From Exilibacterium tricleocarpae (lineage in GTDB: Bacteria; Pseudomonadota; Gammaproteobacteria; Pseudomonadales; Cellvibrionaceae), in assembly GCF_007004655.1 (NCBI RefSeq), contig NZ_ML660116.1:1-60342 (forward strand): a stretch of 60,342 nucleotides of DNA, written 5' to 3'. The first letter of the stretch is position 1; the number at the start of each line of letters is the position of its first letter. A model generated the notes under the pieces. It was not told the origin of the DNA. It was given only the letters and a program-made list of their open reading frames with translations, and ran no database searches. This document shows, piece after piece, positions 34,175-50,557 of the stretch. A program made the translations under genes and the position numbers.

Positions 34175-36339
34175 TGACCGGCGGCGCCCGCAGTTACCGT
34201 TGCATCGCGCTGGGGGCGCTGGCGGTCCTGGGCTTGGGCCTCGGTCTTGGGCTCACGCTTGCCACCTCCCGGTCACTGCAGCCGCTGCCGGACAGCTTCG
34301 AGCACTTGTTCGACCACGCGGCCAGACATACCTTTCTGGATCGCCACGGACAGCCGCTGAACATCACCTATCAAAACCGCTGGAATCTCAACGACCGGGT
34401 CTATCTGCATCAGGTACCGGAGTTTCTGCAAAACGCGTTTATCGTGTCGGAAGACAAACGCTTTTTCGCCCACCGCGGGGTCGACTGGATCGCCCGCGCC
34501 CATGCGCTGGTGCAAAACCTGCTGGCCGGCGATATTGTCCGCGGCGCCAGCACCCTGTCCGAACAGGTGGTGCGTATGCTGCACCCGCGCCCGCGCACGC
34601 CCTGGTCGCGGTGGCTGGAAGGCTTCGAGGCGGCGCAACTGGAGCGGCGTTTCAGCAAACTGGATATCTTCGAGTTTTATTTGAACCAGGTCCCCTACGG
34701 CGCCAATCGCCGCGGTATCGCGCAGGCTGCGGCCCATTATTTCGACCGCGATATCAGCACCCTCAGCGAACGCGAAATGCTGGCACTGGCGGTGTTGGTG
34801 CGCGCGCCCCGCTGGCTCGATCCGCAGCGGCGCGCGGCGCATCTCGACAGCGCCATCGCCGACCTGGCCGCCCGCACGGGCACCGCGGCGATCGAGCGGC
34901 AACCACTGCAACCGGCCAGCGGCCAGTTCGGTCACAATCTCGAACACTTCCTGCAATTTGCCAGCACCCGTGTGGATGCGCCGCGCGGGCAGCCGGTCGA
35001 CACCACCGTCGATATCGAGCTGCAGCAAAAAGTCCAGCGCATACTCGACACGCGCCTGCAAAACCTGGCTCCCCGGCACGTGCAAAACGGCGCCGCCTTA
35101 GTGGTCGACCACCACCGCAACCAGGTGATTGCCTGGGCGGTCGGCCACGCCGGACGCGACGACATGCCCTACAATCAACTCAATGCAGTAGTGGTACGGC
35201 GCCAACCCGGCTCGGCGCTGAAGCCGCTGTTGTATGCGGCCGCGCTGGCGCGCGGTTGGACCGCGGCCACGATGCTGGAAGACATGCCCCTGGAAGAGGG
35301 TGTCGGCCCCGGCATGCACACCTATCACAACTACAGCCGCATCCACTACGGCCCGGTCTCGCTGCGCGAGGCACTGGGCAACTCGCTGAATATTCCCGCA
35401 GTGCGCACAGTGCAATACTTAGGTGCCCAGCACTTTCTCGATTTTCTGCACCGCTTCGGGTTTACCAGCCTGGCAGGTCACCCCAATGTCTATGGCGACG
35501 GGCTGGCCCTCGGCAACGGCGAGGTGACCCTGTTTGAACTGGTGCAGGCCTATGCGGTGCTGGCGCGCATGGGTGACTTCAAACCGCTGACACTGCTGGA
35601 ACACCGACACCGGCAGACCCGCGGCAGGCGGGTCCTGTCGGAGGATGTCGCCAGCCTGATCGCCGATATCCTGTCCGACCCGGGCGCGCGGGAAAAAGAA
35701 TTCGGCCGCGATTCGATTCTCAATTTTCCCTACCAGACCGCGGTCAAAACCGGCACCTCCAGCGACTATCGCGACGCCTGGGCCATCGGCTACAACGACC
35801 GCTACACTGTCGGTGTCTGGATTGGCAATCTCGATTACTCGGCCATGCACAAAGTCACCGGCGCCACCGGACCCGCCCAGGTGCTGCGCTCGGTGGTTAA
35901 CGAATTGAACCGCAACCGCGATGTGAGACCGCTTTATTTCAGCGAGAAACTGGTTAAAAAGTCGGTGTGTGTCGCCACCGGCGCACCGGCACAGGAAGAT
36001 TGCCGCACCCGCGAAGAATGGTTTGTGCCCGGCACCTCTGCGCAGCCGGCGGCCACCACCGCAGTAACCCTGCGCCTGCGCAAACCCAGCCCGGGGCTGC
36101 TGCTGGCCATGGACCCGCGTATTCCCGACAGCCACGAATACTTTGAATTCGCCGTTACCGAAGCCGACGATATTCGCCGGGTCGACTGGTTTGTCAACGA
36201 TACGCTGGTCGCCACCACTGCCGGCCCCCGCTATGCCTGGCCGCTGCGGCGCGGCCAATTTACGGCGCGCGCCGAGGTGATAACCGGGGCTGGCGCCGAA
36301 CCGGTGAAAACCGCGGCGGTCAGCTACCGGGTTCACTGA
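34174..36339 (+). CDS. pbpC: Penicillin-binding protein 1C (bifunctional transglycosylase/transpeptidase)
   Basis: The start is GTG 34174, overlapping the TAG of the macroglobulin gene by one base, with GAGG upstream. The 721-residue protein has a short cytoplasmic tail and one membrane helix (IALGALAVLGLGLGLGLTLA), a GT51 glycosyltransferase with Glu93 in SEDKRFFAHRGVDW and the GASTLSEQ motif, and a transpeptidase with SxxK nucleophile Ser347 (SALK) and KTGTS. The C-terminal ~100 residues form the BiPBP_C domain typical of PBP1C. It polymerises and crosslinks murein at the inner membrane. Partner is the alpha-2-macroglobulin encoded directly upstream. Confidence 0.95.
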   Translation: MTGGARSYRCIALGALAVLGLGLGLGLTLATSRSLQPLPDSFEHLFDHAARHTFLDRHGQPLNITYQNRWNLNDRVYLHQVPEFLQNAFIVSEDKRFFAHRGVDWIARAHALVQNLLAGDIVRGASTLSEQVVRMLHPRPRTPWSRWLEGFEAAQLERRFSKLDIFEFYLNQVPYGANRRGIAQAAAHYFDRDISTLSEREMLALAVLVRAPRWLDPQRRAAHLDSAIADLAARTGTAAIERQPLQPASGQFGHNLEHFLQFASTRVDAPRGQPVDTTVDIELQQKVQRILDTRLQNLAPRHVQNGAALVVDHHRNQVIAWAVGHAGRDDMPYNQLNAVVVRRQPGSALKPLLYAAALARGWTAATMLEDMPLEEGVGPGMHTYHNYSRIHYGPVSLREALGNSLNIPAVRTVQYLGAQHFLDFLHRFGFTSLAGHPNVYGDGLALGNGEVTLFELVQAYAVLARMGDFKPLTLLEHRHRQTRGRRVLSEDVASLIADILSDPGAREKEFGRDSILNFPYQTAVKTGTSSDYRDAWAIGYNDRYTVGVWIGNLDYSAMHKVTGATGPAQVLRSVVNELNRNRDVRPLYFSEKLVKKSVCVATGAPAQEDCRTREEWFVPGTSAQPAATTAVTLRLRKPSPGLLLAMDPRIPDSHEYFEFAVTEADDIRRVDWFVNDTLVATTAGPRYAWPLRRGQFTARAEVITGAGAEPVKTAAVSYRVH

Positions 36340-36373
36340 GTCCGCGTGCTCGTCAGGTTGGCGTCTAAAAAAT

Positions 36374-39300
36374 TCAACCGCTATGCAACTCATACTCACT
36401 GCTGCCATCCGCCCATCCAGCCTCCCAACTGGCGGTAAGCACCTCGTTGGTAAAATGATGGCTGTCGAAAGGCTTGCGGTTGAAACCCTGGCGGAAGCCT
36501 TCTTGGTAGGCTTGCTCAATATCCACCTCCCACTCTTTGCGCAGGCTAAACCAAGCACGCAGTTTTCCAAGCAGCCTGCTCGCCCAACCATTAACCTGAT
36601 TGAGTGTCAGGTAAGCCGCAGGCACCAGTATCAAGCTGATAAAGGTCGCAAAGAGCACGCCAAAAGAAAGCGACACCGCCATCGGTATTAAGAACTGTGC
36701 CTGTACGCTGGTTTCAAGAATGATTGGCATTAACCCGACAAATGTGGTTAACGACGTCAAAATAATCGGCCGGAATTTGGCTACACCCGCGTCCCTGATC
36801 GCATCGACGAGCGGCACCCCCTCGCGGCGCTTAACGTTGATAAAATCAACCAGCACCAGATTGTCGTTAATGACAATGCCACTTACTGCGATAACGCCTA
36901 CAAACGACCATAGCGTAATATCCACACCGGTAATCCAATGGCCCAGCAATGATCCGATGACACCGAAAGGTATGGCGTACATCACCATTAAAGGCTGTGA
37001 GTATGAACCGAACAAAACCGCCATTAGTAAATACATAATAATCAGGGCAAACAGATAGCTTTTTCCCATCATGTGAAAAAATTCCTGGGTGGTTTTTTGT
37101 TTTCCGGTGATACCCCAGCGGATGTCAGGGTACTTAAGCGCCAGGTCTTTGAGTACGGACTGCTCCAGTTCCGTCATCACCTTTGCCACCGAAGCTTCAT
37201 TATTGTCCACAAATGCGGTGACGGTAACGACCCTTTTGCGATCAATTCTCTTAATCGTCGGAGCACCCGTACCATCCTCTATTTCAGCAACGTGTAATAA
37301 CGGTGTCGTAGAACCATCGGCAAGCCGAATATGCATATTTTCCAAATGCCACAGAGAATCCCGCGCTCTATCGGGATAACGCACCATCACCTTGACCTCG
37401 TCCTCGTTACGGTAGAAGCTCTGCACTTCAATGCCGTGAAACGCCTGCTGCACCTGCTGGCCCACGTCACTTAGTGTCAATCCCAGATCACGGGCGGCCG
37501 GGCGCATTTGTATAGCAACCTGCTTGCGACCAGACTGTAGTGAGTCCCGAATTTCGTAGACGCCGCGATACTCAATGAGCTGCTTTTTGACGTCTTCAGT
37601 CACTGATTTCAATGTGCTTAGGCTGGCGCCATAAAAATTAATGGCGAAATCGGGAACCGGGCTATTTAGGTTGGACTCAAAACGCAACTCCAGTGCTCCC
37701 TGAATGTCGCCAACTTTTTCACGCCAACGTGAAAGCACTGCTTTTCCATTAACCTTGCGGTTTTTACTGGCGACAAACTCAATAGACACATTGCCTCTGT
37801 GTTCCTGGTTTTGCGAATCGGCATTAGATACCTTTTGTCTCGGCGCGACGACGGCCAGCACCTGGCCGATTTGTGGTGTTCCAACTTCCTGTTCAAGCTC
37901 TTTTGATAACTGCAAAGCGGCTTGCTCAATTCTGTCCACCGCTTTGCGCGTTACTCCGCTCGGTGTACCTTCTGAAAAAGCCACTGAAGCAACTGCAACG
38001 TCGCCTTCTATCTCCGAAAACAGGACCATTTTCAACCAGCCACCTGACAGCAGCGAACCAGCAACGATAAAAACAGCGATAAAAGCCAGCAGCGAAGCGA
38101 GGTTCCAGCGTAAAATAAACGACAGAAACGGCCGATAAAAACGCTCGATAAAGCGCTCGAGACCGCGTGCAAACTTTTGTTGAAAACCGGATTGATGGTC
38201 TCTTTCAGTGATGCTGCTTTGCGCTAAATGGGCAGGCAATATCAGTAGTGACTCAACCAGGGAAAATACCAGCGTTGAGATCACGACAATGGGAATCACC
38301 TGCATCAGTTTACCCTCGGGCCCCGGTAGATATAACAAAGGAACAAAGGCAATGATCGTCGTCAACACCGCAAAAACTATCGGTTTTGATACATTCTTTA
38401 CACCGGCGACGGAAGCGGCAACACCAATCAGCCCTTGCCGTTGCTGTGAATAAATACTTTCGCCAACAATAATGGCATCATCCACTACGATTCCCAATAC
38501 CAAAATGAAGGCAAACAACGAAATAACATTGATGGAGCCACCCATAACAGGCAATAACCAAAAAGCGCCCATAAAGGCGATGGGGATACCAACGCTTACC
38601 CAGAGCGATATTCGCCAGTGCAAAAAGAGCATCAGGGCTACAAACAGTAGCGCCAGACCCTGTGCTGCATTGGTAAGCAGTAGACTGATGCGACTGGCGA
38701 AGTGCTTGGAGTCGTCCTGCCAAATATAGAGGGAAATTCCCGGCGGGATATAACTGGTCGGTTGCGCTACATATTCCTTTACCACCTCCGCCACATCTAC
38801 AATATTTTGCTTGCCAACGCGATAGACTTCGAGCGAAACCGCCGGCTCTCCGTTGAAAGTCGCGCGCGTATTACCGTATTGGAAGCCATCTACCACTACG
38901 GCCAAATCTGACAAGCGCAGTCGGCCGCCATCGGGCTTGGCACGTAAAATAATAGAGTCGAATCCGTCAGTGGTTTCTACTTTACCCTCTGTCTGCAACA
39001 GCACATCACCCGATGCTGTATTTAAGGTGCCTCCCGGCATATTTTGCGAGGTGTCCCTGACAATGGAGGCCACCTCTGCCAGGCTTAAACCGTACTGCTG
39101 TAGCGAGGACTCCGAGACCTGAACCGAGACTTCATAGGGTCTGACGTTTTCCAAATCCACCACAGATACCAGCGGGTTAGTGAGTAAATCATCGCGAATG
39201 CGTGTCGCTATTTTTTTTAACACCCACTCTTCTGTCTCGCCGCTGATCACCAGCGTAGCGACGCGGTTTCGAACTTTCAGCTCTTTCACAACAGGCCGCT

Positions 39301-39670
39301 GCACTTCTGGCGGAAAACCACTGATACCACCCACCCGTGACTTTACCTCTTCGAGCATCACCCGGGTGTCATAACCAAAATCGACATCCAGTTGTACCGA
39401 ACAATTGCCTTTACTGGCATGACTAATCAGGTCCACCATGCCTTCGATATCGTAAACAGCGGACTCAATACGCTTACAAACTGCCTCTTCCACTTCAAAG
39501 GGCGAAGCGCCCGGATAAGCGGCTTGAATCGCTATGCGTTCGAGGGACACATTGGGGATCAACTCTTTACGGGTATCGGGAATAGACAGATATCCCATTA
39601 CCAGAATAAAGATCATCAGCACATTTGCTGCAACTGAATTATGAGCGAACCATGTAAGCAATCGATTCAT
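36374..39670 (-). CDS. RND-family efflux permease
   Basis: The start is ATG 39670 (MNRLLTWFAHNSVAANVLM), the normal beginning of RND pumps; the frame is open to 39796 but that part overlaps the previous gene. The 1098-residue protein shows two RND repeats, each a membrane helix, a large periplasmic loop and five or six further helices. The proton-relay Asp pair is in GIVVDDAIIV and PYPGASPFEVEEAV-type porter sequence is seen as AAYPGASPFEVEEAV. The last ~70 residues (EVDIEQAYQEGFRQGFN onward) extend past the usual end and are polar. It is the last gene of the six-gene minus-strand cluster, 31 bases after its adaptor gene, so the pair likely exports the cluster's product. No outer-membrane channel gene is nearby; TolC would be needed in trans. 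Confidence 0.95.
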   Translation of the reverse strand: MNRLLTWFAHNSVAANVLMIFILVMGYLSIPDTRKELIPNVSLERIAIQAAYPGASPFEVEEAVCKRIESAVYDIEGMVDLISHASKGNCSVQLDVDFGYDTRVMLEEVKSRVGGISGFPPEVQRPVVKELKVRNRVATLVISGETEEWVLKKIATRIRDDLLTNPLVSVVDLENVRPYEVSVQVSESSLQQYGLSLAEVASIVRDTSQNMPGGTLNTASGDVLLQTEGKVETTDGFDSIILRAKPDGGRLRLSDLAVVVDGFQYGNTRATFNGEPAVSLEVYRVGKQNIVDVAEVVKEYVAQPTSYIPPGISLYIWQDDSKHFASRISLLLTNAAQGLALLFVALMLFLHWRISLWVSVGIPIAFMGAFWLLPVMGGSINVISLFAFILVLGIVVDDAIIVGESIYSQQRQGLIGVAASVAGVKNVSKPIVFAVLTTIIAFVPLLYLPGPEGKLMQVIPIVVISTLVFSLVESLLILPAHLAQSSITERDHQSGFQQKFARGLERFIERFYRPFLSFILRWNLASLLAFIAVFIVAGSLLSGGWLKMVLFSEIEGDVAVASVAFSEGTPSGVTRKAVDRIEQAALQLSKELEQEVGTPQIGQVLAVVAPRQKVSNADSQNQEHRGNVSIEFVASKNRKVNGKAVLSRWREKVGDIQGALELRFESNLNSPVPDFAINFYGASLSTLKSVTEDVKKQLIEYRGVYEIRDSLQSGRKQVAIQMRPAARDLGLTLSDVGQQVQQAFHGIEVQSFYRNEDEVKVMVRYPDRARDSLWHLENMHIRLADGSTTPLLHVAEIEDGTGAPTIKRIDRKRVVTVTAFVDNNEASVAKVMTELEQSVLKDLALKYPDIRWGITGKQKTTQEFFHMMGKSYLFALIIMYLLMAVLFGSYSQPLMVMYAIPFGVIGSLLGHWITGVDITLWSFVGVIAVSGIVINDNLVLVDFINVKRREGVPLVDAIRDAGVAKFRPIILTSLTTFVGLMPIILETSVQAQFLIPMAVSLSFGVLFATFISLILVPAAYLTLNQVNGWASRLLGKLRAWFSLRKEWEVDIEQAYQEGFRQGFNRKPFDSHHFTNEVLTASWEAGWADGSSEYELHSG

Positions 39671-39701
39671 ACCAAATAAATTCTGAATCCCTTCAGACTT
39701 G

Positions 39702-41441
39702 CTAATGCAGAGAAAATGATTGACTGGACTGACGGCCTTCCTCCAAAGTCCCTCCAGCTTCCTCGCCAATACGCACTTCCATGCCGTTAACCACATAGTC
39801 CAGCGCGGTAATCACTATCTGTTCACCGTCGCTCAGGCCACGATCAACATATATCATTTCCGGCCCGCGATAAACTACATTGACCTGTTTAGCATGCAGG
39901 CGGTTTTTCTCGTCCACCGTCCAGACTTTATTGCCGCCGTGGAGTGCCTGTCGGGGAACTTCATAGACCGCATCAAAGTGCCTGCCTTGTATCTCGGCTT
40001 CGACAAACAGGCCGGGCTCCAGCGGTGGACGCTCCGGGTCTTGGAGACTCCTTTGGTAAGGTCGGCCTATTTCACCAACCAGGTACATTATCTGGTTTTC
40101 GTCCAGTCCGCCTTCTGCGTATTCTATTTTTCCCTGCCAGGTATACTTGCTGCCGCCAAAAAATCCGGAGACTTTCAACTGTGGTAGATTTTGCCGTAGA
40201 GAGTTATTCTCCGCGGCATCGCTTCGGGTTTCGTCACTATTGTCCAAATCGTGATCGGGGCTCGGGGCGGGGGCAATACTGTCTGAATAAAACCAGGGCA
40301 AATCAATCAACTTGAGCTGTTTGTTTGACACCGGGAGCCTTATTATCGCCATATCCAGGGCATAGATATCAGCCACCAGTGCCCCGGCGTTGATATATTG
40401 TCCCACGTTTATGTCGCTGACTTTTACCCGACCGGTAAAAGGCGCTTTGAGCTGTGTATTGGCCAGTTGCAGTTGAGCCACCTGAAGATCCGCCTTAGCG
40501 GCTGCAAGTTTGGCTTTTGCCTCGTTTAATTGAGGAATATGTAGCGCATAGGCCGAGGCGTTACGCTTGGCGCCTCTACGCGCGACCTTGGCGGTGGCAG
40601 TGGCTTTCTCCAGAAATAGCTCCGCGCTGGCAACTGCACTTTGTGCCTTAGTCACTTCAAGCTCGTAGCGAGAGGCGTCGATTTGCAATAGCAGTTCACC
40701 TTCTTTGAACACGCCGCCGTTTTTTAGGTTGACGGAAACATAGGTAGCCTTGCCTTCAACCTCAGCAATGAGATTAATCTGGGTTTTTGGTTGTACCGTA
40801 CCGCGGCTGAATACCGGGATTCTTCTCGCCACCTGATTAACCTGCACCACCTCTATCAGGGGAGTGCGTTGGATGACCGGTTGTTTCACCGCCGCAGGGG
40901 CCATTTCTATCAGCGCCCAACCAGCGAGGATGCCGGCTGCCAATATGCTGCCTGCAACAAAAAACTGGAGCTTGCCGATCTTATGTTCCGGCTCAGCCTG
41001 TGATTCATTGGCGTATTTTTTGTCGGATTCCCCGGGCCCCGCTGTCGGGTTACGTCCATTGATCCCCGTGACTGCCCATTTCAGCAGCTTGGCAAAGCCG
41101 AGAAACAGTTTGACCACGTTACCTAAGGCCGTGTTGGTTTGCAGAACACCGCTATCGTCATATAGCTTCTCCCGGCCGTGCTTTTTCTTGTTGCCGGAAG
41201 TTTTCCTTCTTGCCGCCAACAGCTTTTTTCTCAATGCTTGTCGCGCTTCGGGCGTCAGTTGCTTCGGATCGCGCTTCCCGATGGTGCCGCTAGTTTTGAT
41301 TTGATTTTGGCGCTGCCCATGCGTGCGAAGTTCAGCGCGCCCTGCATGGCCCGGTTCGGCTTGGGAGCTGCGCTTTGATCCTGTTCTGTGGTTGACAGTG
41401 CCACGGCTGGTAGCATGTGCTTTATCAGTCGTTTTTTTCAT
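39702..41441 (-). CDS. RND efflux periplasmic adaptor (HlyD/MFP family) with long cytoplasmic extension
   Basis: The 579-residue protein has the membrane-fusion fold after an inner-membrane helix at about residues 160-180 (FFVAGSILAAGILAGWALIE): lipoyl-type halves VARRIPVFSRGTVQPKTQINL and LKAPFTGRVKVSDINVGQYI around a helical hairpin, then a beta-barrel region. Unusually, about 155 residues precede the helix, very basic and rich in Gln, Asn and Lys (KLLAARRKTSGNKKKHGREKL) and predicted in the cytoplasm. Ordinary RND adaptors start with a signal or lipoprotein peptide. The extension may bind a cytoplasmic enzyme of the cluster or nucleic acid. It lies between the condensation-like and pump genes. 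Confidence 0.9.
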   Translation of the reverse strand: MKKTTDKAHATSRGTVNHRTGSKRSSQAEPGHAGRAELRTHGQRQNQIKTSGTIGKRDPKQLTPEARQALRKKLLAARRKTSGNKKKHGREKLYDDSGVLQTNTALGNVVKLFLGFAKLLKWAVTGINGRNPTAGPGESDKKYANESQAEPEHKIGKLQFFVAGSILAAGILAGWALIEMAPAAVKQPVIQRTPLIEVVQVNQVARRIPVFSRGTVQPKTQINLIAEVEGKATYVSVNLKNGGVFKEGELLLQIDASRYELEVTKAQSAVASAELFLEKATATAKVARRGAKRNASAYALHIPQLNEAKAKLAAAKADLQVAQLQLANTQLKAPFTGRVKVSDINVGQYINAGALVADIYALDMAIIRLPVSNKQLKLIDLPWFYSDSIAPAPSPDHDLDNSDETRSDAAENNSLRQNLPQLKVSGFFGGSKYTWQGKIEYAEGGLDENQIMYLVGEIGRPYQRSLQDPERPPLEPGLFVEAEIQGRHFDAVYEVPRQALHGGNKVWTVDEKNRLHAKQVNVVYRGPEMIYVDRGLSDGEQIVITALDYVVNGMEVRIGEEAGGTLEEGRQSSQSFSLH

Positions 41442-41503
41442 AGTCTACTTAGCGTCTGTCAACAGGCCCTGGCTGACCATGCAATACCTGCTAACAGATC
41501 GGG

Positions 41504-42565
41504 TTACTGAGTATCGAGAGCCTTCTCGCGATCAGTCGGACTTATCTGTACCACTTTCCTGCCTGCACTACTTTCCGGTAAAAGATACCTTTTCCACTGC
41601 GCTAAACAACGGCGGGTAAGCGCAATGTCGTCACAGATACTAGGGTGTAGTTTGATGCCAAGCGATAAACGGTCATACCACACGAGTATACCCGTGGATA
41701 CAGGATAATTCCGTGTTCCAATTCCGCAGGCAACCCACATTTCATTGAGGTTTTTTTTGGGATTTTCCGCATCGGGTAATGGCCAGCTACCTAAAAAGCT
41801 AAATGAGCCGGCATAAAACTGGCGCTTGCTGATATATTGGTAGACCCACTTGACGCCAGACTTGCCTATCAGTTTGCCGATATTACCTAAGTACCAGTTA
41901 ACCCAGTACGCCTTGGCTTTTAGTTGCTCTTTTACTCTTTCTTGCAACTTGCGCGGTTCTATACGATTGGTCACACACAGGTTAATGGAGGAGGAATAGT
42001 TAAACATATCCGTGTTAAAATCCAGTGGCCCCCGCAAATTGACAGGGTACAACCAATAGTAGTGTTGTTCGCCGTCAATGAGTAGTTCCGCAACCGCGCG
42101 GTTGAGCGCCCAGAGTATATAGTGGCTAAAGGTAACCCTGTTTTTTCTGGCAAGCTTTTTAACAATAGCGGTCTCCTCTTCTGTCAGAAAGTCATAGGCG
42201 ATTTCTCCGTCGACAGAGCTGTCAATATCCCGCGGGTATTTCCACTTTATCGTCTTCTTGGCGATAGGCTTTGGTTGCTTGAACATCAAGCCTAAAAAAC
42301 GCCAAAACGATGGCACTGCCGTTTCCGTCGACTGAGGCAAGTTGCGCGATGGATACCCGGCACTGCGCATGGTGGTCGCCATACCACCCAATCCGTCCAT
42401 TTTGCTGTGGGGAAAGGTTTTCCAGTGAGTCTGGGCAGTGGCTAAATCCAACCGGGCTACACGCATCGCATCACTGATGCCAAATTCCCTCCTCGCCTCG
42501 AACCACATGGCAATGTAGTCACGCTGTCTGGCAGCAGAATTTTCCTTATCTATATTCTCTCTCAT
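41504..42565 (-). CDS. Condensation/WS-DGAT-like acyltransferase
   Basis: The 353-residue protein looks like a CoA- or carrier-dependent acyltransferase of the NRPS condensation / wax-ester-synthase superfamily. An HxxxDG motif (His53, Asp57-Gly58, in PHSKMDGLGG) is present, then a central VPVNLRGP-like segment (LYPVNLRGPLDFNTDMFNYSS) and a C-terminal region with FSFLGSWPLPD, matching the SN-G-type strand. The motif lies unusually near the N-terminus, as if about 80 residues of the first subdomain were lost or replaced. No membrane segment is clear. It is the fourth of six consecutive minus-strand genes. It probably moves an acyl or aminoacyl group onto the product. The superfamily call is tentative. 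Confidence 0.55.
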   Translation of the reverse strand: MRENIDKENSAARQRDYIAMWFEARREFGISDAMRVARLDLATAQTHWKTFPHSKMDGLGGMATTMRSAGYPSRNLPQSTETAVPSFWRFLGLMFKQPKPIAKKTIKWKYPRDIDSSVDGEIAYDFLTEEETAIVKKLARKNRVTFSHYILWALNRAVAELLIDGEQHYYWLYPVNLRGPLDFNTDMFNYSSSINLCVTNRIEPRKLQERVKEQLKAKAYWVNWYLGNIGKLIGKSGVKWVYQYISKRQFYAGSFSFLGSWPLPDAENPKKNLNEMWVACGIGTRNYPVSTGILVWYDRLSLGIKLHPSICDDIALTRRCLAQWKRYLLPESSAGRKVVQISPTDREKALDTQ

Positions 42566-42630
42566 GGCAACTTTCTTTAAGCCTTACCAGACCGCGCTTG
42601 ATATCGTTCGGTTACAATGATGCAGATTTG

Positions 42631-43731
42631 CTACAGACGCGCTACTTCAATATACAGGGGCCTGCTTTTATCGAGCTGTTTGCCGGGGTCATCTCCATAG
42701 CTCACCAGAAAATGCCTGCTGCGCAGCGACTCTTTTCTGTAGTCACGGTAAGCATCGTGAAGGGGGTCCTGATCGTATAAGCCACTGACGATGACGCCAT
42801 CGGGTTTATTGACATAACCGTTATAAACATATCGCAACAGCGCGCGAAAGATGTCTACTTGATTTTCCTTGACCAAAATACTGTGTAGTAAAACGTAGTC
42901 AAGTGTTTCACCGGGTCTGGGTAACTGTATCCCCCCAAAGCACCTCGAATAGCCGTTGTTAAAGTAGCGTAGCCAACGCATTTTTCCTTTGTAGGCCAAG
43001 AAACGTGTTTGTTTGAACTCTTTTTGATTCCAGGTGCCGCAGATACCTACCAGGTCTTTGTTGTCAAAGGCTAAAAAATAGTCTTCTATAGAAAGATTTT
43101 TATAATAAGCATTACCTTCGACCATTGCCGAGAAATCATAATGGGGGTATAGCTGTTTTTTGGGGGCTTCGCCTTCAAAAAAAGTTTGCATCTGCTGCAA
43201 GTCACCGGATCCGGCCTGACGAATGGTGAGACCCATATCTAAAGCGGGCTTGCTACTTTTGATGTATATCATATGAGTATTAATCTCACCGAAAGGATGG
43301 TAGGCGGGCATACCAGCCCGACTACTGCCAATCGTTGACAGCGAGGCGTGATTGTCGGAGAGTATCACGGTCTGCATCCATTCACGCTCGCCAAGGCGCT
43401 TTTTGACTTGGTTGGCGATACGCAACAAGCCCCTTGAGCCTCGATAATCGCTGTGTATTCTTAAATCATTTGCGTATCGTATACGCCGTTTTTTGCCGTT
43501 GACGTAAACCGGTCGGGTACCTATGCTGAAAGCGCCAGCCAGGCGCTGCTTTTTAGTATCGCAATAGAGCCAGACTTCCGGCGAAGAGGTGACAACCTGA
43601 GTACCATCAAAGAAATTCGCTCCTCGCTCGAAGTTAATCACCATATCACTTCCTTGGGGCGTGGCGTCAACCAAGCCTTTTAGCAGCGCAACGTCAGTGG
43701 TTGTAGCGAGGCGTAAGTCGAAGTTGGCCAT
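42631..43731 (-). CDS. GNAT-like N-acyltransferase, double domain
   Basis: ATG 43731 is chosen over GTG 43734; the start lies 5 bases after the stop of the GH3 gene, implying coupled expression. The 366-residue protein begins ANFDLRLATTTDVALLKGLV, the typical GNAT beta1-alpha1, with an RYANDLRIHSDYRGSRGLLR region for acyl-CoA binding. A second GNAT-like block starts near residue 165 (LTIRQAGSGDLQQMQTFF). Two tandem GNAT folds are seen in N-acyl-homoserine and N-acyl-amino-acid synthase-like families. It is the third gene of the cluster. A role in N-acylation of an amino-acid or amine is plausible; no substrate can be named. Confidence 0.7.
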   Translation of the reverse strand: MANFDLRLATTTDVALLKGLVDATPQGSDMVINFERGANFFDGTQVVTSSPEVWLYCDTKKQRLAGAFSIGTRPVYVNGKKRRIRYANDLRIHSDYRGSRGLLRIANQVKKRLGEREWMQTVILSDNHASLSTIGSSRAGMPAYHPFGEINTHMIYIKSSKPALDMGLTIRQAGSGDLQQMQTFFEGEAPKKQLYPHYDFSAMVEGNAYYKNLSIEDYFLAFDNKDLVGICGTWNQKEFKQTRFLAYKGKMRWLRYFNNGYSRCFGGIQLPRPGETLDYVLLHSILVKENQVDIFRALLRYVYNGYVNKPDGVIVSGLYDQDPLHDAYRDYRKESLRSRHFLVSYGDDPGKQLDKSRPLYIEVARL

Positions 43732-43736
43732 CACGA

Positions 43737-45404
43737 CTATGCTATTTTTGCTGTCGGTTGACGGATCGGCTCGACTGATGCGGAGTCAGAATCAAACTCA
43801 TCGGGCAATTGATCATCCCAGCACACCAACGGCTCTACCTTAATGTTCCCTATAACCATTCCCCGTCGCCGGCACCGTTCCTGGTAGAGTTCCCACGCAT
43901 TTTCGGTAACCACACACTGGGCCGGACCAAGCTGAGTCAGATCTCGCGCTAACTTGTAGTGAAAATGTTGACTCAGGCCTTCCTCAAGCATCGCGGCAAC
44001 TCTATCCCTCTCATCGGACCCGCGAGAAGTGCCTTCACAGAGCAGCAGATAAAAGGGGGGCCGGTTTGATGCAGCCGGTATAGCTACCAGACTAATAGGC
44101 TTAAACGCCTGAGACTGCGGCTCAACCTGGCTGAGTAATTGAGCGGCGAGTTCATTACTCATTTTTTCGCCTACCATATCTGTCCCGTCCATGCGCCCTA
44201 AAAATTCAAAGCAGGGACACTCATTCATAAAATCTACAACCTGCATTTTATCTTTCATGGCGTAACGCATCAGGCCGCTGCCCGTTGTCAAGAGAGGCTT
44301 GACGATCTGGTTCTTTCTAAGTTGCCAGGCGCTATAGATGTTATTGTCTTGTAAATCCATGAATTCATAAAAGTGACTATTTACCGCAAGCGGATACTTT
44401 CCGGAAAAAGGAATTGTGATAACGCCCTCTGTCGCCCACAGCCCTTTGCCTTGGAAATCTGGCCGTTGAAACAATCCTCGAAGTTGTTTTGCCCAACGCG
44501 CCGACGTCGAGGTATCCCATGAACTCACCAGGGCGAGATTGGGCCAGAGTGCAGCAACAAATTCCGGATCGGGCTTGCCATTCCACGCCGCTAATAGCTG
44601 TGCAGCCCGACTCGATTTAGGTGGACCCATTGCCTGTAGCTCACCGGCGAAGTGATTCCACTCCCCTGTGGCGAGGGTTTCGGCAACTGCATTGCGATAG
44701 CGGCCCATATTTTCCAACAGATTAATGGCAAACGTCGGACTCCAGACAGAAATCATTGACAGTGAGCGATCTGCCGCCAAATAGCACAGCGTTGAAAATA
44801 GCGACTGTTCGGAGGTATTGGTTTGTGACACCTCATCGGTCACCGCCATGATGGCCGACATAAACAAGCGCTTCCATAACGGCAATAGCTTCATATCATC
44901 GTTCACATTGCCGCTTATTTGCTTGCGCAGTGAGGTGGGAACCCAGGATAAAGACCAGTAATGGCTGCCTTTACTGATACCCGGGTAACGACAATACATA
45001 TCCCACATCCAGGGTGAAATCGCCGCATCAAGCTCGTCGAGAAACACGTTTGTATAAGGTATCCACTTAATAGCGGAGGTCGAGCCGCTGGTCGGCTGGT
45101 AACGGTCGCACTGGGCATTGGTAACTGCCGTAAGCCCGGTGCTGCGCTGCCGTTCAATACAAGAGGACCAGTCGCTGTAGTCGGTGACCGGGACCTGATC
45201 TCTGAAGCTCTGTAGTGAATCAACTGTATGCAGATGGTACCGTTGTGCGATCTCTGTCGCTTGGGAAAAATGCAGAATTGACTTTAAACGGCCTTGCTGT
45301 GTCGCTTCAAGTTGTTGTGTGCCTCTTATGAATTTCCTACAACCGTTGTAACTGGCAAGTTTTGCAAGTTTATGGGCAATTTTGCTGGTCTGATGATTAA
45401 GCAT
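43737..45404 (-). CDS. GH3-family acyl-acid amido synthetase-like protein
   Basis: The start is ATG 45404; an in-frame GTG at 45407 is less likely. The 555-residue protein matches the GH3 family of adenylating enzymes best known from plants, where they join an acyl acid such as an auxin to an amino acid. The ATP-binding signature is YQPTSGSTSAIKWIPYT at about residue 103; WATEGVITIP resembles the acceptor-side SEG box, and CFEFLGRMDG lies at the hinge. Bacterial GH3 proteins are known, but their products are mostly unknown. It is the second gene of the cluster, next to two GNAT-like genes and an acyltransferase-like gene. It likely activates a carboxylic acid as acyl-AMP and forms an amide. 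Family assignment is firm; the substrate is not known. Confidence 0.85.
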   Translation of the reverse strand: MLNHQTSKIAHKLAKLASYNGCRKFIRGTQQLEATQQGRLKSILHFSQATEIAQRYHLHTVDSLQSFRDQVPVTDYSDWSSCIERQRSTGLTAVTNAQCDRYQPTSGSTSAIKWIPYTNVFLDELDAAISPWMWDMYCRYPGISKGSHYWSLSWVPTSLRKQISGNVNDDMKLLPLWKRLFMSAIMAVTDEVSQTNTSEQSLFSTLCYLAADRSLSMISVWSPTFAINLLENMGRYRNAVAETLATGEWNHFAGELQAMGPPKSSRAAQLLAAWNGKPDPEFVAALWPNLALVSSWDTSTSARWAKQLRGLFQRPDFQGKGLWATEGVITIPFSGKYPLAVNSHFYEFMDLQDNNIYSAWQLRKNQIVKPLLTTGSGLMRYAMKDKMQVVDFMNECPCFEFLGRMDGTDMVGEKMSNELAAQLLSQVEPQSQAFKPISLVAIPAASNRPPFYLLLCEGTSRGSDERDRVAAMLEEGLSQHFHYKLARDLTQLGPAQCVVTENAWELYQERCRRRGMVIGNIKVEPLVCWDDQLPDEFDSDSASVEPIRQPTAKIA

Positions 45405-45434
45405 CACTTACTTCTCTGTATCAAGGTGCTTAAA

Positions 45435-46247
45435 TTATGTCGCCGCCACCTCTTTTCCAGCCGGCACTTGCGTATTGACATCGGCCTTCTTCACCGACTT
45501 GCCTTTGCACAGCTTGAGAAAATAGGCGGCAAATAACTTAAAGGAGACCTCTCCGGCACAAGGCAACTCTACACCTTTGTGCCACTCAGGGTTCTTTTCG
45601 ACAAAGAAGTCGATTTTCGCGTGTTTGGAGCGCATTTCATCAGTGATCTCTGCAACATTTTCCTTTAGCCTTTGGCTATCTTCGCCGAACTCCAGAAGCA
45701 TTTTTTCTTTATTAAAGGACTTCTCAAACAATGTTTCACAGTAATTTCTAACGACCAACTCCAGATTTTTGCACTGACTTTTAGATTTTTTGTCAACAGG
45801 CGTATCGACTCTTGGATAATACGACAAGAAATTGTTTGCCAGCAGCAAATAGGTTTTATATCCCTTGGAGATTAGCAACCAATAGATGGGAGTCACTGGG
45901 TTGGATAGCTTTAAACCAAAAAGGTAAGTTGAAAACCTTTTATGCAATGAACGATCCCCCCAATATTGACGTTCAAGTATTGTGTCACCACTGAATACGC
46001 CGATAGACTTGCGGCCGCCGAGATTCATTTCAAATGTTTTTAACGTGCTAAACCCAACTATTCTTTTTGTCGTCTTTTCCATAAGGATGATTACGCCGTC
46101 TTTCGCAATCATATCTTGAATAAATACATCTTGTTCAACACAGTTGTAATATTTTATAAATACTGCATACATACCCAAAACTTGTTGCAGCGAGAGTTTT
46201 TCGATTAATACATATTTGGCTTCAAGACTGCTTTGCTGTTTTGCCAT
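45435..46247 (-). CDS. Putative GNAT-like protein, first gene of the GH3 cluster
   Basis: ATG 46247 is preferred because GAAGG lies 8 bases upstream; the open frame extends to 46415 without a ribosome binding site. The 270-residue protein has VLGMYAVFIKYYNCVEQDVF near the start, then a GNAT-like strand pattern (KDGVIILMEKTTKRIVGFSTLKTF) and SIGVFSGDTILERQYWGD, which could be a CoA-binding core. The remainder is helical, with SKGYKTYLLLANNFLSYYPR. It matches no family I can name with certainty. It heads the minus-strand cluster, 30 bases before the GH3 gene, and faces the AraC gene across a 505-base region. It may provide a second acyl transfer step. Confidence 0.5.
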   Translation of the reverse strand: MAKQQSSLEAKYVLIEKLSLQQVLGMYAVFIKYYNCVEQDVFIQDMIAKDGVIILMEKTTKRIVGFSTLKTFEMNLGGRKSIGVFSGDTILERQYWGDRSLHKRFSTYLFGLKLSNPVTPIYWLLISKGYKTYLLLANNFLSYYPRVDTPVDKKSKSQCKNLELVVRNYCETLFEKSFNKEKMLLEFGEDSQRLKENVAEITDEMRSKHAKIDFFVEKNPEWHKGVELPCAGEVSFKLFAAYFLKLCKGKSVKKADVNTQVPAGKEVAAT

Positions 46248-46752
46248 TGGTAGTACCTTCGCTAATTTCCTGTGATGCTGTTGACTCGAAACGACACCGG
46301 AGCATGACCCGAGTTTCAATTGAAACGAAATTTGGTGACAAAAAAATAAGATTAGTTGGCTTGGAAACGAAGTTTTCTTGAGTTGAAAAATATAGACGGA
46401 GTGTGCGCAAGGCATTGGATTGCGAAAAGGTTTAAAGGGGTCACCAAGAGGTCTTTAGCGGTCATGGTTTTGTTCAAAATCACGTTTTGTGATTGGCCTA
46501 GCAATACCGGTGCGCAGCAAACCGCATTCTCTGGAAATTGCGAAAATGGCTGCATTATGATATTCCACAACAGTGATACGATACTGGCGATGTGCTGTGG
46601 TAGACGTTTTTCTGAAGCCGAAGCAGCGGCATAGCATAAGTCGGGCTGAAACACCAAAAATACTACCGTATTTCATAATATGTTCTGTCCAAAGCTTCGG
46701 ATAGATCCGAAAAATTTCACTATGTTTAGAAAAGGTATTGTGTAAACACAAT
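46248..46752. promoter_or_regulatory. Divergent control region between GH3 cluster and AraC gene
   Basis: These 505 bases separate the start of the minus-strand cluster from the AraC-type regulator on the plus strand, so both promoters lie here. No clear palindrome or -35/-10 pair was found. Short open frames across it (for example 46356-46634) lack ribosome binding sites. Regulation of both directions by the neighbouring AraC protein is expected from the arrangement. Confidence 0.45.
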
Positions 46753-47757
46753 ATGAAAACAGGCCCTTTAGAGTTTGATTCTCCAACCATTCCTATCCTT
46801 TATGCTGCAAAATTGGTCACACTGGTTGAGGAGGAGGGCTGCAAAGTTGATGTCATTTTAAAGGACTGTGACATTAAACGCCGCTCTTTTCTTGAGCCGG
46901 AATCTAAAGTTACAACGTCTCAATTAAAAAAACTTATCCTGAAACTACAGAAAGTTTCAAACAATGAATTTCTTGCACTGGATTTAGGCAGTCACCTGAA
47001 TTTTTCCTCCCATGGTCTCTCGTGCCCGAATGCGTTTCAGGGTTTGAGTATAGGGTTCATTCTCTCCGCCGGCATTGAGTATCTCAAGATTCGCTTTCCG
47101 CCGGTGAAGCTTGAACTGGATGTTACCGAAAAGTATGCCGCTATCACTATCGACGTTGTCAGGGCACTGGATGTTATCCGGATTTTTATCATCGAAGTGA
47201 TTCTAAGCAGCTTTAAGCTAATGTGTGATAGATACATACAAATAGAAGAGATTGTGCTGGATTACCCTATGCCTACTTATGCCGGCAACAAGTATAACGA
47301 GAGGTTTACTACGAATATCCGTTACGATTGTGACTCGACACAAATACGATTTGAGAAAAAGTCGCTCGAGCGGCTTTATGTGCCAATTGGCCAGAAACAT
47401 GAAAAGCCGGTCGGTAAACACAGTCCATCCGGGCATATTGTAAACCAGATCAGAGCAATGGTTGGTCGCGAGAAAGATGTGTTTATAAGCTTAGAACAGG
47501 TCTCCGATAAACTGGATTTGTCACCGAGAACCTGCCGGCGTCAACTCAATGCCCATGGATACTCTTTCAAACAACTGCGGGACGAAGTACTTTACTCCAA
47601 AGCCCTTCGGTATTTGCAGGAAACCGATATGCCGATGGAAGACATTGCGTTTAGTCTGGGCTACAGCGACAAAGCCAATTTTCGCAGGGCATTTCGTCGC
47701 TGGTCTGGCAAGCCGCCGAGTGCGTTTCGGAAATCAACCAAAGCTGAGGCGACCTAG
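46753..47757 (+). CDS. AraC-family transcriptional regulator
   Basis: ATG 46753 gives a 334-residue protein; the frame opens at TTG 46738. The N-terminal ~200 residues match the arabinose-binding-like domain of the OruR/ArgR-type AraC group (PTIPILYAAKLVTLVEEEG, a SHGLSCPNAFQGLSIGF block). The C-terminal ~100 residues hold two helix-turn-helix motifs (ISLEQVSDKLDLSPRTCRRQL and MEDIAFSLGYSDKANFRRAFRRWSGKPPSAFR). The arrangement of an AraC gene facing a biosynthetic operon points to autoregulation and control of the cluster in response to a small molecule, possibly the product or a fatty acid. The inducer is unknown. Confidence 0.9.
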   Translation: MKTGPLEFDSPTIPILYAAKLVTLVEEEGCKVDVILKDCDIKRRSFLEPESKVTTSQLKKLILKLQKVSNNEFLALDLGSHLNFSSHGLSCPNAFQGLSIGFILSAGIEYLKIRFPPVKLELDVTEKYAAITIDVVRALDVIRIFIIEVILSSFKLMCDRYIQIEEIVLDYPMPTYAGNKYNERFTTNIRYDCDSTQIRFEKKSLERLYVPIGQKHEKPVGKHSPSGHIVNQIRAMVGREKDVFISLEQVSDKLDLSPRTCRRQLNAHGYSFKQLRDEVLYSKALRYLQETDMPMEDIAFSLGYSDKANFRRAFRRWSGKPPSAFRKSTKAEAT

Positions 47758-47857
47758 CGTCAATAGGACCTGGCTCTTACCTAATACCGATATATCGGTG
47801 AACCTTCATTTTGTAAGTTGTTCGGATGCTTGTGCGGATAGTTTTTAAGAGGTGATA

Positions 47858-49171
47858 ATGAGATTTATACTGGTTACAGCCGGCAGCTTTGGTGATGTTG
47901 TACCTTTTGTCAATATTGGCGCAGAACTGCAACGCCGGGGGCATGAGGTTAAAATTGTTGCCAGTGGCTATTTCCAGGCGCTATGTGATAGAAACGCATT
48001 GACGCTGTGTGCTTATTCAAACAAAGAAGACTACCAAAATGTTTTAGACGATCCCCGATTAGTCGATGGCCGCAAAAGTGCAAAAACCTTCGCACAGAAA
48101 GTCCTCCTGCCCGCAATTCGCCCGGTTTATGAGATTATCTTGCAGCACTATATTCCCGGCGAAACAGTCCTCTTGTCCACGGGTTTTTGTTTCGGCGCCC
48201 GCATAGCTTCTGAAAAATTCAATATCCCCCTAGCTACTGTTAAATTGGCACCCGTTCAGTTTCGATCCCTTAGCGACTTGCCTAAACACCCTTTATTTAA
48301 AAGCTGGCTGCCCGACTGGTGGCCCCGCAGTATATGGTATCTCTACGACAAGCTGATGGTCGATCCACTTATTAAATCCGCGATTAATGAAGTTAGGAGC
48401 AGCATTGGCCTATCGCCGGCACACCGCATACTGCATAAATGGTATGAATCTCCCGAGAAGGTGTTCGGCCTCGTGCCGGAGTGGTTTATGAGAATGGATA
48501 AGCACTGGCCGGCACACAGCGAACTGGTTGGATTTCCATTGCCTGCGCTAAATCAGCAGGTTTTGGACAGTGATATAGAATCTTTTTTAGACCGCCACCC
48601 CAATCCGATGATATTTACCGGAGGCACTGCTAATAAAAAGGCAAAGTCTTTTTTTTATGAGGCAGTTACAATCGCAGAACAGCTGGAAAAGCCTGCTATA
48701 CTGCTCACGTTACACAAGGATATGTTACCGAAAACCCTGCCGGCATACGTAAGACATGTAGATTTTTCGCCCTTGGGTGTACTACTTGCCCGAGCCTCTA
48801 TTTTGATACACCCGGGCGGTATCGGCACAATTAGCGAAGCGATAAGGGCTGGAATACCGCAGGTTATTGTACCCGTGGCCAATGATCAGTTTGATAACGG
48901 CAATCGAATAGAAGCGTTTGGACTAGGCGTCTGTATCAAACGCAAACACTTTCTGGCAGACGCTATGGTGCCAAAAGTAAAAACCGCCCTGCAGTCATTG
49001 GAAATAAGAAACCTTTGTGCTCACCGCAGCCGTATGTTGCAAAGCAATAACCTCGTATATATAGGTGATCGCATCGAAGCTTATGTTAAGAACATAGAAT
49101 GCATCGCAAAATGTGCCGACTCTCCTGACGCCGGCGATGCAACGTCTGCGACCATTGCGGCAGCTAATTGA
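47858..49171 (+). CDS. GT1-type glycosyltransferase (UGT/RhlB-like)
   Basis: ATG 47858 follows an AAGAGG; the frame also opens at GTG 47852. The 437-residue protein begins MRFILVTAGSFGDVVPFVNIGAEL, the typical nucleotide-sugar glycosyltransferase N-terminus. Near the C-terminus HPGGIGTISEAIRAGIPQVIVPVANDQ carries the UGT donor-binding motif (HPGGIGT and the final DQ). Such enzymes move a sugar from UDP- or dTDP-sugars onto lipids, sterols or small molecules; RhlB makes rhamnolipid this way. There is no signal peptide. It lies 100 bases after the AraC gene and may glycosylate the cluster's acylated product. That link is inferred. Confidence 0.85.
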   Translation: MRFILVTAGSFGDVVPFVNIGAELQRRGHEVKIVASGYFQALCDRNALTLCAYSNKEDYQNVLDDPRLVDGRKSAKTFAQKVLLPAIRPVYEIILQHYIPGETVLLSTGFCFGARIASEKFNIPLATVKLAPVQFRSLSDLPKHPLFKSWLPDWWPRSIWYLYDKLMVDPLIKSAINEVRSSIGLSPAHRILHKWYESPEKVFGLVPEWFMRMDKHWPAHSELVGFPLPALNQQVLDSDIESFLDRHPNPMIFTGGTANKKAKSFFYEAVTIAEQLEKPAILLTLHKDMLPKTLPAYVRHVDFSPLGVLLARASILIHPGGIGTISEAIRAGIPQVIVPVANDQFDNGNRIEAFGLGVCIKRKHFLADAMVPKVKTALQSLEIRNLCAHRSRMLQSNNLVYIGDRIEAYVKNIECIAKCADSPDAGDATSATIAAAN

Positions 49172-49222
49172 AATACAGTGCCTGTTCATGGCTTATCACC
49201 ACCTATCGCCAAGAGAGATAAA

Positions 49223-49860
49223 ATGCAATCAATACCCTACCTAAAACGGAAGTTGACGCCGGTGGAACGCTACTATGTCTGCTTTGACAGTTTTGATAAA
49301 CCCAGGCATTCACCTTGCATGAACCAGATGACAATTGAAGGGGAGGGTCAGTTCTGTGAACAGGCTTGGAGGGATGCAGTCGCCATTGCCTCCAAGGCAA
49401 ACAGTTCCAGCCGACTGCGGATGGTCGGAAAATTAGGGATGACGCGGTGGGTGGTTCAAGGCGACACCGCACCGATAAGAGTTATCGACGGCTCGCAGTG
49501 GAATGGGCTTGGCAGCGATGGTTGCCACTTCGAACCATGCGGAAGATTAATGATAAAGCCAATAGAAAACGTTTAAATAATGGCCGCTTTCGCTTCAATG
49601 ACCTGATATCCAACCTCGGGTTGTTACCCCTGGACAGCTATGCGGGCGGTGGTTTTACAGCAAAGACCTGCTTCTTTATACCGGCCGAGGAGAGCGCCAT
49701 ACCGATGTTTTTCACCTTGGCCGGCTCTGCCCAGGGTGTGGATCTTGCGCTGCGAATGCCTGCAAGTTTAGCGACTGAAAACCGTGCGGCGCAGGCTCTG
49801 GATTTCGTGGCTGATTTTGTCAGGTGTAGCCAGTCCGGTCGAGCCAGTCAGATACCGTAG
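49223..49860 (+). pseudogene. Decayed condensation/acyltransferase-like gene
   Basis: Two frames carry pieces of one protein. Frame one, from ATG 49223 to 49576, reads MQSIPYLKRKLTPVERYYVC and onward to WNGLGSDGCHFEPCG, the N-terminal subdomain of condensation/WS-DGAT-type acyltransferases. The other frame, ending at TAG 49860, contains RFNDLISNLGLLPLDSYAG and PMFFTLAGSAQGVDLALRMP, the C-terminal part of the same superfamily. About 230 central residues, with the HHxxxDG site, are missing, and the pieces are out of frame near 49520-49576. The gene looks inactivated by an internal deletion. It resembles the incomplete condensation-like gene at 41504-42565 and may once have been part of the cluster. 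Confidence 0.6.
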
Positions 49861-49873
49861 TGCTCGCACTTCT

Positions 49874-50557
49874 CTATAGCTTCTCGCCATCTACATCGTC
49901 GATCACCCCTTCAATAGCCTGGATATCATCCATGATGCCGCGGGCGGCATCCATGGCATCCATGCGCCCGATATTCTCTGTTATGGCGTCTTGTAGCGCA
50001 TCCCGTGCCTCATCAAATTTTCCCTCCTCTTGCAATCTGTCAGACTCCTCTAAGGCGTCCTCATAGGCCTGCTCGTGTTGCTGCACCTGGTCGCGCAGGT
50101 CTTGCAAACTTTCCTCCAGGCCATCAAGCACCGTCTCCGCCTCATCCAAGAAGTCGTTAATAGCCTGGGCTGCGGCAAAACCGGCATCGGCATCCCCGCC
50201 ATCCGCCTCGCTGCCGTCTTCACCGAGATCACTGTCGGAGGGTTCTGACAGCCCCCTGCCACGGTCACCTTCACCCCCCTCGCCCGAGGCGGCAAGCCCG
50301 GTCGGGTCTTTGAGAGACACAGGATTATTGAATCCATACGTGTAGCGATTAAGCCCAACGCCATCCGCCAGGGGGGCTGACGGGTCCGCCGATATAAAGC
50401 GGGCCAGCACCGGGTCGTAATACCGCGTATTTAACAACATCGACCCGCCCCCCTGCGGACGCTCGCCGATAAAGCGGTGGGACTCCATTGTTTCGCCAGC
50501 CAACACCGTGTTAAATCCATAGACATCCAGCACCAGAATCAGCGCAAGTATACGCAT
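49874..50557 (-). CDS. Small secreted protein with RHS core domain and acidic coiled-coil tail
   Basis: The 227-residue protein has a short signal peptide (MRILALILVLDVYGFNTVLAG), then an RHS core (LLNTRYYDPVLARFISADPSAPLADGV...RYTYGFNNPVSLKDPTGL) without the long run of YD repeats that normally forms the RHS shell. The rest is acidic and helical, with a coiled-coil-like stretch of ~70 residues (ETVLDGLEESLQDLRDQVQQ onward). A good AAGGA lies 9 bases before the ATG, so it is likely expressed rather than a random fragment. It might be a degenerate RHS end that gained a signal sequence, or a small surface protein. The acidic tail contrasts with the basic tail of the RHS gene at the left end. 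Confidence 0.7.
   Translation of the reverse strand: MRILALILVLDVYGFNTVLAGETMESHRFIGERPQGGGSMLLNTRYYDPVLARFISADPSAPLADGVGLNRYTYGFNNPVSLKDPTGLAASGEGGEGDRGRGLSEPSDSDLGEDGSEADGGDADAGFAAAQAINDFLDEAETVLDGLEESLQDLRDQVQQHEQAYEDALEESDRLQEEGKFDEARDALQDAITENIGRMDAMDAARGIMDDIQAIEGVIDDVDGEKL

Follow-up and report, generated by a model that had tools for sequence, protein, structure and literature searches.

The window analysed here is a stretch of 60,342 nucleotides of contig NZ_ML660116.1 (NCBI RefSeq assembly GCF_007004655.1) from the gammaproteobacterium Exilibacterium tricleocarpae, whose genome comprises 7.18 Mb in 73 contigs. Positions 36374-46415 hold six tightly spaced minus-strand genes, ordered A-B-C-D-E-F from the right, which face an AraC-type regulator gene (G) beginning at 46738 and a glycosyltransferase gene of the GT1 type (H). 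An earlier note on this DNA had described the arrangement and proposed that a GH3 enzyme with adjoining acyltransferases, the glycosyltransferase and a dedicated pump supply a secreted acylated conjugate. All eight genes are indeed open reading frames (ORFs) at the positions given below.

Within the operon, A (45435..46415, probable start 46247) encodes a GNAT-like protein of no Pfam family, B (43737..45407) a GH3 acyl-adenylating amide ligase, and C (42631..43734) a tandem GNAT protein with a predicted N-myristoyltransferase-like fold. D (41504..42565) is a PapA/condensation-like acyltransferase, E (39702..41441) the periplasmic adaptor of an RND exporter, and F (36374..39796, with a probable start near 39670 as read from the sequence) an RND permease with an RMF-like C-terminal tail. 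With the starts chosen here, the gaps A-B, B-C, C-D, D-E and E-F measure 27, 2, 65, 62 and ~31 bases.

Conserved core of the gene set

A genome collection was scanned with a GH3 alignment, and the best 80 loci by GH3 match alone were retained, a selection and not a census. Adding the window, L021 (the same locus as L085) and L018 (NZ_CP104448.1, recorded as Acinetobacter baumannii) gives 83 loci; the reference lists leave out ORFs containing X and loci L064 and L100. Searches with blastp (E <= 1e-4, anywhere in the locus, with the window counted in each total) match A in 81 of the 83 loci, C in 78 (the match in L042 being weak), the RND pump in 39 and the adaptor in 34. When ORF family and distance are considered in the 80 best loci, A lies within 2.5 kb of the GH3 gene in 74 and C within 3.5 kb in 74, with both conditions holding in 69. 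Since the loci were picked by GH3 alone, the linkage of A and C is not built into the sample.

An even draw of 369 genomes from the class gives the same picture: the genomes with GH3 (E <= 1e-20) and those with A (E <= 1e-10) are one and the same set of 9. The two genes adjoin in 7 of these and lie on different contigs in G223 and G357. The A-GH3-C triad is the core of the gene set, and the remainder varies. A chance association of these neighbours, which the earlier note had named as a finding that would count against its proposal, is rejected by the conserved linkage both across the loci and in the class draw.

Genera in which the cluster is found again include Alcanivorax, Marinobacter, Thalassolituus, Oleispira, Alkanindiges, Acinetobacter and Aquabacterium, and the hosts largely belong to genera that degrade alkanes. 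Individual carriers include Acinetobacter baylyi (L096), Alcanivorax hongdengensis (L039), and Alloalcanivorax xenomutans and balearicus (L077, L078), the last two close kin of the proline-lipid maker Alcanivorax dieselolei. ADP1, a strain of A. baylyi, is amenable to laboratory work. Of 17 genomes from the genus of A. jadensis, 16 have the GH3 gene, the exception being the smallest (3.1 Mb). A more distant set of loci keeps most or all of A-GH3-C next to radical SAM, Rieske-type or desaturase-like neighbours (the Rieske and desaturase labels in L022-L029 were read from the sequence).

Predicted activating and acyl-transferring enzymes

The GH3 assignment of B, previously made from the sequence alone, is borne out by a profile search in which all three Pfam domains exceed the cut-off of 23.6 bits: the N-terminal (PF03321) with 136.4, the middle (PF23571) with 56.9 and the C-terminal (PF23572) with 36.5 bits. 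B is the sole GH3 found in the host genome at E <= 0.001. Compared with the sequences of solved structures, it yields five matches, all to plant GH3s, the best being the benzoate ligase GH3.12 (E 3.8e-8, 36 bits). Residues T106 and G108 (in TSGST), T326, E327, D386 and K523 are invariant in an alignment of 7 rows, and are presumably those of the adenylation motifs.

Neither A nor C has a Pfam match over cut-off in the window, and the A family as a whole belongs to no Pfam family, with a stray TLD match in one of 54 members. The probable start of A at 46247 is the edge of the homology match, and residues 1-21 and 23-51 of the longer ORF are modelled at a predicted local distance difference test score (pLDDT) of <50. 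The predicted model of A has a mean pLDDT of 82.2, and Foldseek returns 173 matches at E <= 0.001; among the 50 listed almost all are GNAT-type acyltransferases (best E 2.3e-6), a partial fold match. Profiles of A, C and D gave no clear match to the sequences of solved structures, with C producing weak GNAT matches from E 0.04. The alignments consist of hand-picked rows (54, 43 and 20 in A4, A5 and A6, respectively).

The AlphaFold model of C (mean pLDDT 93.9) resembles over its whole length the N-myristoyltransferase 4uwi, its best Foldseek match (E 1.5e-12, TM-scores 0.63/0.60, 11% identity), and also the tandem GNAT 7q3a (E 2.7e-12); Acetyltransf_9, a GNAT family of Pfam, is matched by 14 of 43 aligned homologues. 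All 43 rows share one end column, mostly as (E/D)xx(R/S)(L/I), with -EVARL in the window. N-myristoyltransferase and Eis use their C-terminal carboxylate as catalytic base. The fixed C-terminus of C, taken together with that mechanism, therefore leads us to infer that its own carboxylate is a putative catalytic base. The likeness to N-myristoyltransferases and tandem GNATs lies in the fold and the fixed C-terminus; it stops at an identity of about 11%, and a peptide substrate is not expected for C.

D carries an HxxxDG motif (HSKMDG in the window) whose H53, D57 and G58 are invariant in 20 rows. PapA_C falls below the Pfam cut-off in the window (16.7 vs 30 bits) and is found at E <= 0.01 in 8 of the 20 rows, with a best E of 1.4e-7. 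The suggestion that dedicated acyltransferases adjoin GH3 is supported.

Export components

Both exporter proteins pass their profile cut-offs: E with RND_mfp (139.6 vs 94.9 bits) and F with Pfam ACR_tran (547 vs 28 bits). Ahead of its membrane helix, E of the window has an N-terminal extension of ~155 residues, basic in character; at this place the Moritella ORF carries D followed by a linker. D and E form a single ORF in all three Moritella loci (L031:12979-15492, L032:12923-15310, L033:12944-15349); the fused ORF of L031, the one scanned with Pfam, contains PapA_C below cut-off and parts of HlyD. This fusion ties the acyltransferase to the exporter. Outer-membrane channels of RND exporters are often encoded elsewhere, and none was found by Pfam among ten proteins scanned from 36374-50557.

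The C-terminal tail of F (ORF residues 1092-1132; minus strand, 36401..36523) resembles PF04957 (RMF) at E 0.0022 and 18.5 bits, below the 27.9-bit cut-off. Pumps of L030 and L035 carry the tail over cut-off, those of L036 and L081, like that of the window, below it, and in L087 and L045 it is unreported; by manual count, 20 of 39 aligned pump rows have its W-x-A-G motif. A docking role for this tail is speculation.

The exporter differs among lineages. By ORF family, the 80 best loci have near GH3 an RND pump (within 8 kb) in 37 cases, an ABC/HlyD system in 8, an EmrAB-like MFS pair in 4 and an MMPL pump in 1, the last lying after C in L044; the EmrAB names were read from the sequence, and the procedure missed an RND match in L057 that blastp shows. 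One example each was confirmed with Pfam for the ABC ATPase, HlyD and ABC-2 parts, for the MMPL pump, and for a TolC-type protein in A. baylyi. On a quick GH3 tree, subject to long-branch warnings and built from sequences trimmed to the part matching the window GH3 plus 8 residues, the exporter label changes 4 times among rows with a recognised exporter, or 18 times if "none seen" is treated as a state. The window is sister to Pleionea on this tree, with a support of 99 in the Shimodaira-Hasegawa-like approximate likelihood ratio test (SH-aLRT). A stable core with a changing exporter points to a product that has to exit the cytoplasm, and since the exporter family differs by lineage, product export fits better than a general drug pump. 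Of the dedicated pump proposed earlier, the link with an exporter is conserved, with the family varying and a recognised exporter adjacent in only part of the loci.

Association with AlkB

The presence of AlkB was assessed with a DNA pattern for its motif; the same pattern read backwards gave 0 hits among the rows listed. In the host genome the ORF that bears the motif is 400 residues long and, as read from the sequence, has histidine motifs like those of AlkB. The pattern was found in 33 of the 369 class genomes, and in 34 of 45 genomes hosting the cluster (44 hand-picked from the 80 loci, plus the host's own). The window's order was sampled with 366 genomes, a draw that was searched for A and the AlkB motif, overlaps in part with the 45 host genomes and had its counts entered by hand; A occurs in 34 of them (17 genera, 10 families) and the AlkB motif in 133. 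Cross-reading the two listings by hand places the motif in 34/34 A-bearing genomes vs 99/332 others, with Fisher p-values of 5e-17 by genome and 2e-8 by genus. When labels are permuted within families, the chance of all 34 being AlkB-positive is 5e-4. The link between cluster and AlkB is strong in the window's order, and it is not universal.

Proposed pathway and alternatives

Precedents exist for several components. OlsH, a bacterial GH3, uses ATP to join a fatty acid and ornithine into N-acyl ornithine, and its authors expect further bacterial GH3s to make different N-acyl amino acids, according to the available sections of the report (PMC12493201), the main text of which contains none of the names Alcanivorax, Acinetobacter and Marinobacter. 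The identity of B with OlsH was rejected, the NCBIfam model scoring 14.1 bits vs a cut-off of 620. The planctomycete OlsH/OlsI ornithine lipid pathway and the cluster share a bacterial GH3 amide ligase and an acyltransferase serving lipoamino acid synthesis; unlike that pathway, the cluster pairs its GH3 with two partners of the GNAT type and adds an exporter as well as an HxxxDG acyltransferase, and Pfam detects no OlsI-like alpha/beta hydrolase in its six operon proteins. Mycobacterial PapA and MmpL lipid export likewise sets a PapA-like HxxxDG enzyme beside an exporter of the RND superfamily, whereas the pump here is an adaptor-dependent RND and GH3 is the likely activating enzyme; neither a polyketide synthase (PKS) nor a fatty acyl-AMP ligase (FAAL) was detected with Pfam among the operon proteins scanned. 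The N-acyl amino acid synthases FeeM and NasY have the same expected product class but, as far as the available descriptions go, are single enzymes using acyl-acyl carrier protein, whereas the cluster has a ligase of the ATP-using kind together with partners. Lipid synthesis by a bacterial GH3, the coupling of PapA to MmpL and N-myristoyltransferase-like enzymes are thus already known kinds, and their combination was not found described. The statement in the earlier note that no product is known for this gene set agrees with the open-access literature, in which we found no description of the cluster and which misses most subscription journals.

The accessible parts of PMC6669457 and PMC5174103 report a proline lipid from A. 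dieselolei and a lipopeptide of unknown structure from A. hongdengensis, and in those of the former the biosynthesis of lipoamino-acid surfactants in marine bacteria "was not described". The favoured reading is that the six genes produce a small acylated amphiphile without a nonribosomal peptide synthetase (NRPS) or PKS and export it. The product would most likely be a lipoamino acid, in the form of an N-acyl amino acid or an acylated amine. This reading is preferred because the OlsH precedent, the lipoamino acids of Alcanivorax and the presence of the cluster in Alcanivorax and its kin coincide, and we regard it as evenly poised between right and wrong; that the product acts as a surfactant is a further guess.

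What has been observed is the gene content and its conservation, the folds as predicted, D and E as a single ORF, and a statistical association with AlkB; the substrates, the order of steps, the product, its secretion and its regulation we infer as follows. GH3 would adenylate a fatty acid and couple it through an amide bond to an amino acid or an amine. C might then transfer an acyl group of acyl-CoA onto an amino group, with its C-terminal carboxylate serving as base, and A, as a second GNAT-like enzyme, could add or prepare another group. D would add the last acyl chain, ester- or amide-linked, before passing the product to the E-F pump, and the AraC regulator may control the operon, perhaps in response to alkanes or fatty acids.

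A number of observations weigh against this reading. The fold match of A is partial, at a TM-score of ~0.3 of the query. D is patchy, with a blastp match in 31/83 loci and an ORF of the HxxxDG family in 45/80, and no recognised exporter is adjacent in 30/80 loci (judged by ORF family, several contigs being cut). The exact AlkB motif is missing from 11 of the 45 hosts, namely Pleionea (L030, the closest relative), three Moritella, Pseudomonas segetis and six others. Among the 9 triad genomes of the class draw, no more than 3 carry it (G000, G223, G266). The main text of a proteomics study of alkane-grown Thalassolituus names no GH3 in the portion available (PMC6304351), and in the accessible part of an A. 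dieselolei transcriptome study proline metabolism is regulated equally on alkane and pyruvate (PMC5174103).

One alternative is an acylated aminolipid retained in the envelope in the manner of ornithine lipids, the pumps moving lipid to the outer membrane with no surfactant being secreted. In its favour, OlsH, the characterised bacterial GH3, yields the precursor of a membrane lipid, C is followed by an MMPL pump in L044, and 30/80 loci lack a recognised adjacent exporter; but the other exporter types, among them the MFS pair and its TolC-type outer-membrane protein, ordinarily carry their substrates out of the cell, and an OlsI-like hydrolase is not among the operon proteins scanned. We consider this account unlikely. 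The dedicated exporter, AraC regulator and several acyltransferases would also suit siderophore or signal pathways, such that the product could be a secreted metal chelator or signal with no surfactant role. Pfam scans of neighbouring proteins revealed no TonB receptor or iron gene, which counts weakly against it as the scans covered a selection of neighbours, and the AlkB link would have no obvious reason; this possibility appears improbable.

Plant GH3s conjugate aromatic or indole acids with amino acids. That B does the same, with the pump expelling the conjugates, gains from the fact that all five solved-structure matches are plant GH3s and the best a benzoate ligase. The similarity is nevertheless weak (E 3.8e-8, 36 bits), and the N-myristoyltransferase-like and PapA-like partners, together with the AlkB link, point to fatty acyl groups, making such conjugation very improbable. 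An ordinary multidrug pump in chance company is barely credible: the host genome does contain 10 matches to F at E <= 1e-100, F included, but the gene order is conserved across many genera, D and E occur as one ORF, and an RMF-like tail is found on about half of the aligned pumps, all of which contradict it.

Returning to an exported lipoamino acid, a broader view may tentatively be advanced, which we think doubtful as a whole. The cluster would represent a widespread undescribed class of biosynthetic clusters that, without NRPS, make a secreted lipid in which an amino acid or amine bears several acyl groups. It would be the missing pathway by which alkane-degrading marine bacteria form lipoamino-acid surfactants, the proline lipid of A. 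dieselolei among them, with the last acyltransferase physically tied to the export adaptor and a pump that may carry an RMF-like docking tail. The cluster would also take GH3 enzymes beyond plant hormones and a single planctomycete lipid, to exported molecules in large number.

Regulator, glycosyltransferase and genomic site

G (plus strand, 46738..47757) passes the Pfam cut-offs for HTH_18 and Arabinose_bd, in keeping with the AraC regulator named earlier, and is separated from A by a divergent intergenic region (46248..46737). AraC matches by blastp occur in 31 of the 83 loci, several of them weak, and one AraC-related family lies ~2.3 kb upstream of GH3 in 23 loci. A promoter scan of 36200-50000 found sigma-70-like sites at chance level (16 found vs 16.2 expected). 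H (plus strand, 47852..49171) passes the cut-offs for EryCIII-like_C and UDPGT. Its proposed part as a tailoring enzyme was rejected, with matches in 2/83 loci including the window, hence in 1 locus besides it, and we judge it a neighbour outside the system.

The G+C content is 0.43-0.53 across 36-50 kb (2-kb steps) vs 0.62-0.64 just to the left and 0.59-0.61 just to the right. The flanking PbpC-like and CBS-like genes (names read from the sequence) are 71% and 88% identical to those of the same-genus genome G001, where they lie 18.5 kb apart on one contig vs 14.7 kb in the window. The G001 interval contains other cargo, with a G+C content of 0.38-0.45 over 12 of 19 kb, and tblastn of the eight proteins against it gave zero matches; the best matches elsewhere in G001 are 24-25% identical for GH3 and 42% for the pump. 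The different cargo at the same site indicates that the contents of this site are variable and that the cluster was probably acquired horizontally. No tRNA was found in the window, no integrase among ten proteins scanned with Pfam, and no insertion-marking feature in a repeat search. The site itself spans 36340-51054 of the window, and its low-G+C cargo differs between both genomes of the genus (the window and L129); at L129 it holds a 794-residue helicase-like ORF, as read from the sequence, along with other unrelated genes.

Some related loci differ in composition. L034 (Myxococcota) and L042 (deltaproteobacterial) combine A and GH3 with three condensation-like ORFs each; L034 has a radical SAM protein and is without C, and the C match of L042 is 21% only. 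A distant version of the A-GH3-C triad is found on a Citrobacter plasmid (L020:9247-21342), where it is accompanied by five genes annotated as radical SAM, one for a PAP2 phosphatase and one for a fatty acid desaturase. The PLSDB A. baumannii "plasmid" of L018 (NZ_CP104448.1) is 4.09 Mb long and thus probably a mislabelled chromosome. For A. baumannii, the available parts of PMC5997985 place a GH3 gene among the predicted protein interactions of a membrane protein, and those of PMC8543017 and PMC7667040 name an MFS/HlyD-type pair by locus tag, possibly that of L018, which is not drawn on here. Just beyond the cluster in the window, a short ORF at 49874-50557 has an RHS repeat-associated core domain over the NCBIfam cut-off and is perhaps an RHS remnant.

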